Notes under the pieces: generated by a model | Told to the model about the DNA's origin: nothing | What the model saw: the letters and a program-made list of their open reading frames with translations, nothing else | The model's database searches: none | Shown: piece after piece, positions 34,895 to 39,573 of the stretch | Layout: each line of letters starts with the position of its first letter | Position numbering within the stretch: the stretch's first letter is position 1 | DNA from: an uncultured Pelagibacteraceae bacterium | GTDB lineage: Bacteria > Pseudomonadota > Alphaproteobacteria > Pelagibacterales > Pelagibacteraceae | Direction: 5' to 3' | Assembly: GCA_902583635.1 (NCBI GenBank) | Contig: CACHWJ010000002.1 | Coordinates: forward strand, 1 to 64,000 | DNA: 64,000 nucleotides | Made by a program: the position numbers and the translations under genes

Positions 34895-35409
34895 AATTTA
34901 AGACTTATGAAATAAATTACCAACATCGTATAAAATCCAGCCATTATATCATCCATAATGATTCCAAAGTAATTTTTAAAATTTTTATCAAAATAACTTA
35001 CTGGAAATGGCTTAAAGATGTCAAAAAATCTAAAAACAAAGAAAGAAATAATATAATAAATTTCTATTTGCATAGATATTTGATTAGTTTGGTTCAAATG
35101 TAGGAGTAAAATTAACGGCATAGATTGACCCAAAACTTCATCAATTACTATTTGTCTTGGATCTTTATTTACAAATTCACTCTCACTATCTTTCACCGCA
35201 TAAAATGAGTAAAAAAATATAATAATAAAGAAGATAATTGAAAATCTTAAATCAGTGTATCCAAGATATTCATAAGCAATATAAATAAAAATTGTTGTTA
35301 CCAAAGACGCCACAGTGCCAGGCATTTTGGTTAGATATCCGTACCCAAAGAAAGTAGATATTAAAATGTTAATTTTTTTCATTGAGAAATTGAGCAAATT
35401 ACCTCGCAA
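34891..35409 (-). CDS. pgpA: Phosphatidylglycerophosphatase A
   Basis: STFFGYGYLTKMPGTVAS, VIDEVLGQ, GIMDDIMAGFY. Confidence 0.88.
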   Translation of the reverse strand: MRGNLLNFSMKKINILISTFFGYGYLTKMPGTVASLVTTIFIYIAYEYLGYTDLRFSIIFFIIIFFYSFYAVKDSESEFVNKDPRQIVIDEVLGQSMPLILLLHLNQTNQISMQIEIYYIISFFVFRFFDIFKPFPVSYFDKNFKNYFGIIMDDIMAGFYTMLVIYFISLKF

Positions 35410-36479
35410 GCAATTGCTTTTTCCTTTCCTATTAATCCTAATTTTTCAACAGTTTTGCCTTTTAAATTTATTAATGAAGTATCAATGTTTAATAATTTAG
35501 ATAAGGATTTAATTATTTTATCCCTGTATTTTGAGACTTTGGGTTGTTCACATATTAAATTTATATCAAGATTATTAATGTAGAATTCATTTTTATTGAT
35601 CATTTCAATTACTGTATTTAACATTTTAGGAGATCTTATATTTTTAAATTTTTTTTTATTATCTGGAAATAATGTTCCTATATCTTTTTTTCTCATTGCC
35701 CCTAATAGAGCATCAATAATGGAATGAATTATAACATCTCCATCTGAATGACCTTTTAACCCTGAATGGAACGGGATTTTTAAACCAGCTAAATATAATT
35801 TTTTACCTTTGACTAATCGATGAATATCAAAACCTATTCCAACAAATGTTTTATTAATTTTGATGTCTTCTAAATAAGTAATTTTACTATTTAAATTTTC
35901 ACCTTTAACAAATTTAATTTTGAAATTATTCTCTATAAATAATGTTGCCTCATCCTGAATTTTAGCCTTTTGTTTTAATGCTAGACTATAAAGATTATTA
36001 AATTTGAAAGCTTGTGGGGTTTGAGTCGAAAAAGAATTTTCACGTTTTAAATTAAATAATTTTTTTTTTACTCTGTACTTAATAGAGTCATTTGTATTTA
36101 TTATCGGAATAACAGCCTTATTTTTGCTAAGGGATCTAACTAAATTTTTTAAAAGTTTTATGGAAAAATTTGGTCTTGCAGCATCATGGATCAAGACATT
36201 TGATGGTTTAAATTTTTTAATGTAATTAAGTCCTATTAGAGTGGAGTCTGATCTTTCTTTGCCTCCCTTCAAAATAATTACATTTTCTGGAAATTTTTTA
36301 TTGATTTGTTTTTTATTATTAACAACTAATATTATTTTTTTAAATAATTTAGATCCTAAGGCTTTTTCAATTGAGTGTTCAAAAAGAGGCTTATTTTTAT
36401 AGATAATATATTGCTTAAGTTTACTTGAATTAAATCTTTTGCTTTGTCCTGATGCTAGTATTATAAAATAGTTATTCAT
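35379..36479 (-). CDS. ispDF: Bifunctional IspD/IspF (MEP cytidylyltransferase / MECDP synthase)
   Basis: N-terminal IspD (ILASGQSKRF, VLIHDAARP) fused to IspF (GIGFDIHRLV, GHSDGDVIIHSIIDALLGA). Confidence 0.95.
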   Translation of the reverse strand: MNNYFIILASGQSKRFNSSKLKQYIIYKNKPLFEHSIEKALGSKLFKKIILVVNNKKQINKKFPENVIILKGGKERSDSTLIGLNYIKKFKPSNVLIHDAARPNFSIKLLKNLVRSLSKNKAVIPIINTNDSIKYRVKKKLFNLKRENSFSTQTPQAFKFNNLYSLALKQKAKIQDEATLFIENNFKIKFVKGENLNSKITYLEDIKINKTFVGIGFDIHRLVKGKKLYLAGLKIPFHSGLKGHSDGDVIIHSIIDALLGAMRKKDIGTLFPDNKKKFKNIRSPKMLNTVIEMINKNEFYINNLDINLICEQPKVSKYRDKIIKSLSKLLNIDTSLINLKGKTVEKLGLIGKEKAIACEVICSISQ

Positions 36480-36503: not shown

Positions 36504-38285
36504 ATGTCAGAATTTATTAAAAAAAACATATATCTAATAATATTATTTATTATCACATTATCGATAGGTTTTTTAACCTTTTTAACTTTCATCGATAAAG
36601 GCTTTATTGAATTAAATGATCAGAATTTACAGTATTTATTAATACTTAATATCATTTTATTAGTTTCTCTTTTCTTATTTATTTTTTCAGAAATTCAAAA
36701 AGCAATTAAAAATGATATTGATAAAGATGGTTTGAAATCAAACAAAAAGTATATTACGTATTTTGCTTTATTCACGTTAATACCATCTGTTTTAATCTCT
36801 ATTTTTTCGTTATTTTTATTTTCATTTGCACTTGAAAAATATTTTGACAAAAAAGTCACAACTGTAGTTAATAATTCTTATGAACTAGCGAGAAGTTATG
36901 TTGAGGAAATAAGAAATAAAATTCAATCAGATATCGTCTTAATCGCGTTTGATACTAATAAGAGCAAAAATTTTTTAAATGATAATATTAACGAGTATAA
37001 GCGTTTTTTAAATACACAAAAATTAATAAGAGATGTGGACGAAATTCATATAATTGATGTAAATAAAAAGCTTTTATTTACTACAATTAATAATAGTCAG
37101 TTTTTCGTTCCTCCAGTTGATAGAGCTCTTAATCTAGTTTTAGACGATGATAGACCTTTAAAAATTATTAATGCCCCAGAAAATATTTCTGCAGCAATAA
37201 TGCGACTTCAAAATTTCGATGACAGATTTCTTTATGTTGTAAAATATTTAGATAAAGAAATCTCTAGATATTTAACCGAGTCAGAGGAAGCAATTAATTT
37301 TTATTATACTGTTGAGGAAAAAAGTAGTGGGATAAAAATATCTTTTGCAATTATTTATATTGTAGTTGTGAGTGTTTTATTGTTTGTATCTATATCAATA
37401 GCCATTAGATTTTCATCAAGATTTTTTAGATCTATTAATAATTTAATTTATGCCTCAACTTCAATTGGAGAAGGAAACTTTGATGCAAAAGTTCCAGAAG
37501 TAACAACTGACAAAGATCTTGAGAATTTAAATAAAAATTTTAATTTAATGATTGACAGACTAAAAACTCAACAGGAAAAACTTATTATTAATGAAAGACA
37601 TGAAGCATGGGGTAGCTTAGCAAGAAAATTAGCTCATGAAATAAGAAATCCTCTTACTCCAATTCAATTAACCATTGATAGATTAAGAGAAAAATATTCT
37701 GATTTGTTAAAAGAAAAAGATTCAGAAAAATTTAAAGATAATTTAAAAATAATTAATAATCAGATTAAACAAATTGGAAACCTAGTTAATAAATTTTCTG
37801 ATTTTGCAAGAATGCCAAAACCAACATTGAGAGAAAACAATATTGTTATTTTACTTAAAGAAAATATTAAATTATTAAAGGAATTAGACCATTCTATTGA
37901 GATCACCTTAAACTGTAATTCAGAAAAAATAATTTTAAATAGTGATAAAGAGCAGATAAGTAGAGTATTTTTAAATTTAATTAAAAATTCAATTGAAAGT
38001 ATTCAGCAAAAAGCTGAAAATGATAGTAATTTCAGTAAAAAAATTAGCATTGAACTTTTTGAGAATGATCTCCACATAAACCTAATTATAATCGATAATG
38101 GGATTGGATTTGGAAAATTTTTTAAAAATATTAAGGATATTTTAACCCCTTACTTTACAACCAAAAAAGATGGTACTGGTTTAGGATTGTCAATAGTAAA
38201 TAAAATTATAAATGATCACAATGGTAAAATTGAATTTATCCCAAGAGATAGTGGTGCCGAAATTAAAATTAATTTTCTAAAATAA
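36504..38285 (+). CDS. ntrY: NtrY-like sensor histidine kinase (short form)
   Basis: N-terminal TMs, HAMP, HEIRNPLTPIQL H-box, HATPase (GTGLGLSIV); 593 aa, adjacent to ntrX. Confidence 0.9.
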   Translation: MSEFIKKNIYLIILFIITLSIGFLTFLTFIDKGFIELNDQNLQYLLILNIILLVSLFLFIFSEIQKAIKNDIDKDGLKSNKKYITYFALFTLIPSVLISIFSLFLFSFALEKYFDKKVTTVVNNSYELARSYVEEIRNKIQSDIVLIAFDTNKSKNFLNDNINEYKRFLNTQKLIRDVDEIHIIDVNKKLLFTTINNSQFFVPPVDRALNLVLDDDRPLKIINAPENISAAIMRLQNFDDRFLYVVKYLDKEISRYLTESEEAINFYYTVEEKSSGIKISFAIIYIVVVSVLLFVSISIAIRFSSRFFRSINNLIYASTSIGEGNFDAKVPEVTTDKDLENLNKNFNLMIDRLKTQQEKLIINERHEAWGSLARKLAHEIRNPLTPIQLTIDRLREKYSDLLKEKDSEKFKDNLKIINNQIKQIGNLVNKFSDFARMPKPTLRENNIVILLKENIKLLKELDHSIEITLNCNSEKIILNSDKEQISRVFLNLIKNSIESIQQKAENDSNFSKKISIELFENDLHINLIIIDNGIGFGKFFKNIKDILTPYFTTKKDGTGLGLSIVNKIINDHNGKIEFIPRDSGAEIKINFLK

Positions 38286-38286
38286 C

Positions 38287-39573
38287 ATGAGTACTGAAAT
38301 ATTAATTGTTGATGATAATGCGGATATAAGAAATATCATTAATGAGCTTATATTGGACGCTGGCTATAAAACTAGACTAGCAGCTAATTTCAACCAAGCC
38401 TTATCTGAGATTGATAAAAAATTACCTGATGTTGCTATTTTAGATGTTAAGTTAGATAAAGGAGATAATGATGGTATCGAACTTCTTTCTCATATTAAGT
38501 CAAAAAATAAAAATGTTCCTGTAATAATAATATCTGGTCATGCTAACATTGAAATGGCAGTTAAGTCTTTACATAAAGGCGCTTTTGAATTTATCGAAAA
38601 ACCTTTTGATAGTGACAGGTTACTAAATTTTATCAAAAGAGCTGTCGAAAATTTTAATCTTAAAAAAGAAAATCAAGAATATGAAAACAAACTATTTTCA
38701 TCTTATGACATTATAGGAAATAGTAAAAACATAACTAATATTAAAGAGTTGATAGCTAGAAAAATTCATAAAAATTCTAAAAGAAGCAAAAATCCTTTTG
38801 TGATATTGAATGGAGCTCTATTAGACTCTAATAAATATGAGCTTGAGTTATTTGGTGAAGAAAAAGAAAATGGATCAATTTCTTATGGAGCTTTAGAAAA
38901 AGCTAATAGTGGCACACTTTTAATTGACCAAGTTTCAGAGATTCCTTTAGATATACAATCGAAAATACTTAGGGTTTTAACTGACCAAAAATTTAAACGT
39001 GTCAATGGTAGCAACGATGTAACTGTTGATGCTAGGTTAGTGTGCTCATCGAGTAAAGATCTTAAAAAAGAAATCGAAATAGGTAATTTTAGAGAAGATC
39101 TTTTTCATAGGATAAATGTTTTTGAAATAAATATTGAGCCTTTAAATCAAAGAATTTCTGATATTCCACTTTTGATAAATTATTTTTCTAAAAAAATTTC
39201 CGAAAATTATAATATCAAAGAATTAAATATTGATGAAAACAATAGTTATATTTTAAATCATAATTGGCAAGGTAATGTTAGAGAGCTGAGAAATTTAATT
39301 GAAAGAATAGCCATATTGCAACCTAATACAAAAGATAAAATTTCAAATATTATTAAAGAGTCATTAAAAAATAATAATTTTGATGATCAAATTGCGGAAA
39401 ATAGCCTATCTGTGCCATTAAAAGAGGCTAGAGAAAAGTTTGAAAAAGAGTATTTAACTATTCAACTAAAAAAATTTAATGGAAATATTTCAAAAACAGC
39501 AAGCTTTGTTGGTATGGAGCGGAGTGCCTTACATAGAAAACTTAAAGGTTTAGGAATTAAAGAGTTTAATTAA
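38287..39573 (+). CDS. ntrX: NtrX-family response regulator with degenerate AAA+ domain
   Basis: Intact receiver domain (DDNADIR, AILDVKL, EKPF), AAA+ remnant (ELFGEE, FREDLFHRINVF, WQGNVRELRNLIER), Fis-type HTH; P-loop not present. Confidence 0.92.
   Translation: MSTEILIVDDNADIRNIINELILDAGYKTRLAANFNQALSEIDKKLPDVAILDVKLDKGDNDGIELLSHIKSKNKNVPVIIISGHANIEMAVKSLHKGAFEFIEKPFDSDRLLNFIKRAVENFNLKKENQEYENKLFSSYDIIGNSKNITNIKELIARKIHKNSKRSKNPFVILNGALLDSNKYELELFGEEKENGSISYGALEKANSGTLLIDQVSEIPLDIQSKILRVLTDQKFKRVNGSNDVTVDARLVCSSSKDLKKEIEIGNFREDLFHRINVFEINIEPLNQRISDIPLLINYFSKKISENYNIKELNIDENNSYILNHNWQGNVRELRNLIERIAILQPNTKDKISNIIKESLKNNNFDDQIAENSLSVPLKEAREKFEKEYLTIQLKKFNGNISKTASFVGMERSALHRKLKGLGIKEFN

Follow-up and report, generated by a model that had tools for sequence, protein, structure and literature searches.

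Clade-wide replacement of the Walker B glutamate by glutamine in SAR11 NtrX, with a private P-loop deletion in one genome

The closest described counterparts of the SAR11 NtrX proteins are an engineered bacterial enhancer-binding protein (bEBP) and several natural regulators without a GAFTGA loop. The E108Q variant of PspF (4qnm/4qnr/4qos) is left with less than 1% of the ATPase activity and a 30-fold higher affinity for ATP, forms constitutive hexamers, and still acts via ATP binding (PMC4132715). Its Walker B substitution is identical to that of the SAR11 clade described below, and in both cases the P-loop is intact; however, PspF E108Q is engineered and dependent on GAFTGA and sigma54, whereas the SAR11 change is natural, fixed, and found without GAFTGA or sigma54. 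Brucella abortus NtrX (5m7n/5m7o/5m7p), a member of the NtrY-NtrX family for which crystal structures with ATP and with ADP exist (PDB 5m7n and 5m7p), resembles the SAR11 proteins in combining a receiver, an AAA+ domain without GAFTGA, and a Fis-type helix-turn-helix (HTH), and its Walker A sequence GPSGAGKE is close to that of intact SAR11 NtrX. In contrast, its Walker B motif is D-E rather than the D-Q of the SAR11 clade, and the copy analyzed here has no P-loop at all. The NtrX of Caulobacter likewise lacks GAFTGA (PMC10274813).

The NtrC proteins of Rhodobacter capsulatus and Caulobacter are also GAFTGA-less and act at sigma70 promoters, as would be inferred for SAR11 NtrX, although NtrC is a paralogue distinct from NtrX. 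R. capsulatus NtrC needs ATP binding but not hydrolysis, according to the account of it given in PMC10274813. Caulobacter NtrC needs residues of both Walker A and Walker B, with D235 of Walker B being essential for function (PMC10274813), and thus hydrolysis is not dispensable in every GAFTGA-less protein. Vibrio cholerae VpsR has a bEBP fold, lacks GAFTGA, acts at sigma70 promoters, and is mentioned in PMC10274813 as not requiring ATP, but it is a c-di-GMP-binding protein and not an NtrX. The SAR11 bacteria possess very few two-component systems, four (PMC13198564) or five (PMC10592609), with NtrYX among them. NtrX, its missing GAFTGA loop, and its presence in SAR11 are already known.

The gene studied here lies in a 64,000-nucleotide stretch of DNA from an uncultured Pelagibacteraceae bacterium (hereafter, the window). 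The ntrX gene (38287..39573, + strand, as are all of its features given below) encodes 428 amino acids compared to ~451 in intact relatives. It is located immediately downstream of ntrY (36504..38285, +), which encodes an intact cognate sensor kinase with NtrY_N, HAMP, HisKA, and HATPase_c domains, and upstream of trkA and trkH. On the other side of ntrY, a long open reading frame on the opposite strand (35379-36479, -) encodes a putative fused IspD-IspF isoprenoid enzyme. Pfam profiles identified in the window NtrX a receiver (Response_reg, residues 5-116, 38299..38634), a sigma54-activator AAA+ domain, an AAA lid, and a Fis-type HTH (HTH_8, 39430..39546). The receiver phospho-acceptor Asp53 (38443..38445) is invariant across all relatives. 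The best NCBIfam model by far was NF051870 (NtrX), with a score of 487 bits against a curated cut-off of 600; intact SAR11 relatives scored 534-545 bits and were likewise below it, which indicates that the cut-off shuts out the whole lineage rather than this gene specially. The adjoining NtrY, the receiver Asp, the GAFTGA-less AAA+ domain, and the Fis HTH are all traits of the NtrX family, and we call the gene NtrX by its best family match, operon, and architecture, with the caveat that its score is under the NF051870 cut-off. Within the nucleotide pocket, Walker A and the Walker B Glu are missing, whereas the glutamate-switch Asn175 (N198 in intact relatives, 38809..38811), the arginine fingers R269 and R275 (R292/R298, 39091..39111), and the sensor II Arg332 (R355, 39280..39282) are conserved in the alignment with relatives and do not vary within the SAR11 clade described below.

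The Walker B motif of the window NtrX is Asp214-Gln215 (GACCAA, 38926..38931), with Q215 encoded by CAA at 38929-38931 within GTLLIDQVSEIP; this position is Glu in most bEBPs. Among 180 distinct NtrX sequences of the order, 108 have DQ, 66 DE, three DH, and three EQ, so that 114 carry a residue other than Glu (111 Q and 3 H). All 114 form one clade in the FastTree phylogeny (support 0.92, and 1.0 for the next node out), and the sampled non-Glu members were also monophyletic in a subset tree (SH-aLRT 97). A single clade indicates that the Glu was lost once in the genus and never regained, even though a single base change converts a Gln codon into a Glu codon. The replacement of Glu by Gln extends across a large SAR11 clade of the genus to which the window belongs, with Gln found throughout, unlike the deletion described below, which is private to one genome. 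We found no report of this clade-wide change in SAR11 NtrX among the open-licence papers. Several individual sequences show further variation. Three SAR11 NtrX proteins at two separate tree positions (L110, L150, and L073) have also exchanged the Walker B Asp for Glu, resulting in E-Q; three others (L009, L010, and L091) have D-H. One protein from another genus of the same family (L229, genome G415) has an intact GPSGSGKE and a D-N Walker B and falls outside the Gln clade. Three genomes of the same genus that are 90-95% complete (G045, G055, and G072) gave no NtrX match at 1e-40, which may reflect real absence or contig gaps.

The L1 region of the window NtrX reads ELFGEEKENGSISY, and GAFTGA is absent. 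The genome of the window (82% complete) yielded no match to the rpoN families PF04552 and PF00309, and none of 118 genomes of the order exceeded the family cut-offs, with one sub-threshold match. Two features of sigma54-dependent bEBPs, the GAFTGA loop and an rpoN gene in the same genome, are thus missing. These results bear out a preliminary description of the locus, which had noted the missing P-loop, the D-Q Walker B with its CAA codon, the lack of GAFTGA, and an intact receiver and HTH. That description had further proposed that NtrX works here as a phosphorylation-controlled DNA-binding regulator, which it saw as fitting a genome without rpoN; given the absence of rpoN, a sigma70-type role is a sensible reading, but the view of the three losses as one rpoN-linked degeneration is not supported. 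The deletion is private, the Gln is clade-wide and preserved by selection together with an intact P-loop, and the missing GAFTGA is a trait of the NtrX family. We also examined a class sample of 70 alphaproteobacterial NtrX sequences, which were picked partly for divergence and had their reading frames chosen by HMM. GAFTGA occurred in none of the 70, 48 of which came from rpoN-bearing genomes, and the explanation of its absence by rpoN loss was rejected, since 0/48 rpoN-bearing species have the loop. A link between loss of the Walker B Glu and loss of rpoN was also unsupported: motifs other than D-E were found in 8/22 rpoN-lacking and 8/48 rpoN-bearing genomes (Fisher p 0.12), D-E persists in 66 sequences from rpoN-lacking SAR11 lineages, and the Glu is gone from some alphaproteobacteria that do have rpoN. 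The NtrX tree, with several long branches of uncertain placement, requires a minimum of 11 switches between Glu and non-Glu. Walker B erosion of a similar sort recurs elsewhere among alphaproteobacterial NtrX lineages.

The second difference from known NtrX proteins is confined to the window copy. The Pfam Sigma54_activat match starts at profile position 35 of 168, so that the domain lacks its Walker A end, and the leftover of the domain (38743..39129) corresponds to PF00158 profile positions 35-167. In the alignment with Brucella NtrX that had been proposed as a check, the best PDB match, 5m7n, aligned as two segments interrupted at the P-loop, whereas an intact relative aligned end to end across GPSGSGKE. 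The in-frame deletion of 69 bp costs the protein 23 amino acids, which in relatives form a helix, beta strand 1, and Walker A. The P-loop pattern Gx[STI]GxGK was kept in all 179 other distinct NtrX sequences of the order, leaving the window copy as the sole exception (n = 180). Within the genus, alignments of the window protein to all full-length relatives were split into two pieces at the P-loop, and the alignment to its own genome was continuous. All 80 of the named SAR11 loci spanned 451 codons (1353 bp; one match begins two codons later), full-length ntrX in 151 evenly sampled genus genomes encoded ~450-452 amino acids throughout, and a search with a degenerate form of the junction sequence IKELIARKIH hit one of 399 genus genomes, that of the window itself. 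The flanks aligned without gaps to three close relatives, on the left from 33.3 kb up to the junction and on the right from there to ~42.6 kb, so the deletion is the sole coding indel across ~9 kb. The two flank alignments share 6 bp in the window (TAAAGA, 38742..38747); such an overlap is the hallmark of a deletion, here of 69 bp, that occurred between short direct repeats, and the DNA alignment and the junction pattern mark the same position. Judged from these alignments against the 180 relatives, the P-loop gap is a clean repeat-bounded deletion rather than chance drift. Only one amino-acid change is private to the remainder of the window AAA+ domain, which gives no sign of long evolution without a P-loop and no sign of relaxation. 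A displaced P-loop was looked for by eye in the window NtrX and none was found, and with the P-loop absent, this protein should not bind ATP.

Structure prediction, also suggested by the preliminary description, gave a low-confidence model of the window copy. AlphaFold runs with shallow alignments reached a pLDDT of 24-74 per ten-residue block over most of its AAA+ domain, compared to mostly 70-88 for an intact relative. In Foldseek comparisons with solved AAA+ structures, the intact relative matched at a TMt of 0.75-0.83, whereas the window copy, through its low-confidence model, reached 0.35-0.38. Although both models are low in confidence, they agree that the AAA+ fold suffers once the P-loop is lost together with the helix and core strand, and the window copy has probably lost this fold as well as the P-loop. 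Its receiver and HTH could still act.

For the NtrX proteins of the Gln clade, we infer that they bind ATP, hydrolyze it slowly, are locked as oligomers, and act at sigma70 promoters. In the proposed mechanism, these proteins would be phosphorylation-controlled DNA-binding regulators at housekeeping-sigma promoters. Their AAA+ domain would keep ATP binding with the catalytic Walker B Glu swapped for Gln, so that ATP would be held and hydrolyzed very slowly, and it would serve as an ATP-occupied oligomerization platform instead of a sigma54-remodelling motor. On top of this, the window copy has its private in-frame 69-bp deletion, through which the P-loop and one core strand are gone. We consider this two-layer reading, an ATP-binding, slowly hydrolyzing sigma70-type regulator in the clade plus a private deletion in one copy, to be the probable one. 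The broader proposal that NtrX is naturally ATP-locked across the large SAR11 clade, with ATP occupancy rather than hydrolysis setting its oligomeric state at sigma70 promoters, is in our estimate about evenly balanced between right and wrong. An E-to-Q change may leave residual hydrolysis, and the AAA+ domain of the clade could bind some ligand besides ATP; our literature search found no biochemistry of any SAR11 NtrX. If the Walker B E-to-Q change is fixed in NtrX, a major regulator of SAR11, which are among the most abundant bacterial groups in the ocean, would read ATP through binding alone. Nature would also have supplied a counterpart to the E108Q variant with which bEBPs are dissected, and the role of hydrolysis-free ATP binding in NtrX would become directly testable.

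An alternative for the clade-wide change is neutral drift of the Walker B Glu to Gln in an ATPase left purposeless once rpoN was lost. The absence of rpoN from the whole order agrees with this explanation, as do the degenerate Walker B motifs in 16/70 other alphaproteobacterial NtrX and the commoner Walker A damage in rpoN-lacking genomes of the class sample, the only ones in which it occurred (4/22 compared to 0/48, Fisher p 0.008, kinship ignored). Synonymous and non-synonymous changes counted by codon parsimony within the non-Glu clade argue against it. The Gly, Gly, Gly, and Lys codons of the P-loop have accumulated 38, 33, 34, and 12 synonymous changes, respectively, and the codons of the glutamate-switch Asn, the two arginine fingers, and sensor II have 8, 10, 18, and 13, with no non-synonymous change at any of these positions. 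The Gln codon itself shows 16 synonymous changes and a single non-synonymous one (Gln to His). Both the Gln and these pocket residues are thus under purifying selection, which agrees with a protein that binds ATP but hydrolyzes little of it, as PspF E108Q does. Across the AAA+ domain the N/S ratio was 0.27 in the non-Glu clade and 0.37 in the Glu lineages, and thus constraint is no weaker in the former. Furthermore, outside the clade, all 66 relatives from the order have kept D-E although they lack rpoN. This pattern resembles selection to retain nucleotide binding alongside a changed catalytic residue rather than decay, and we regard drift as improbable.

With respect to the deletion, the evidence points away from an evolved variant and leaves two origins: the sequenced cell had recently mutated and lost ATP binding, or the deletion is an amplification artefact. 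An artefact would have arisen by template switching at the short direct repeat during whole-genome amplification or in assembly, the real cell having a normal 451-aa NtrX. Its restriction to a single genome, the flanking 6-bp repeat, the removal of an otherwise invariant motif, and the unrelaxed remainder of the AAA+ domain all speak for this origin; however, the sequence is otherwise clean, with zero further coding indels over the ~9 kb compared to three relatives, and assemblers do not normally collapse 6-bp repeats. An artefact is therefore a serious candidate, to which we give slightly less than an even chance. The preliminary description taken as a whole would instead imply an evolved AAA+-dead NtrX in a genome without rpoN, which had lost the P-loop and the Walker B Glu together and retained only phosphorylation and DNA binding. 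The gene is indeed in frame with receiver and HTH intact, dN/dS is low across the remaining sequence, and rpoN is absent, but the deletion is found in no other genome, the nearest relatives (~90% DNA identity) keep the P-loop, and the low-confidence AAA+ model is unlike solved AAA+ structures. This scenario appears quite unlikely to us, and a P-loop missing from a single genome is no evidence for an ATP-independent NtrX.

The damaged Walker A motifs in the class sample belong to four rpoN-lacking alphaproteobacterial sequences, L234, L240, L243, and L232, in which the motif reads AQSGLGC, GSKFSDK, GPVGSGQ, and GPVGCDR, respectively. These four sequences are better candidates for an evolved P-loop loss than the window copy.
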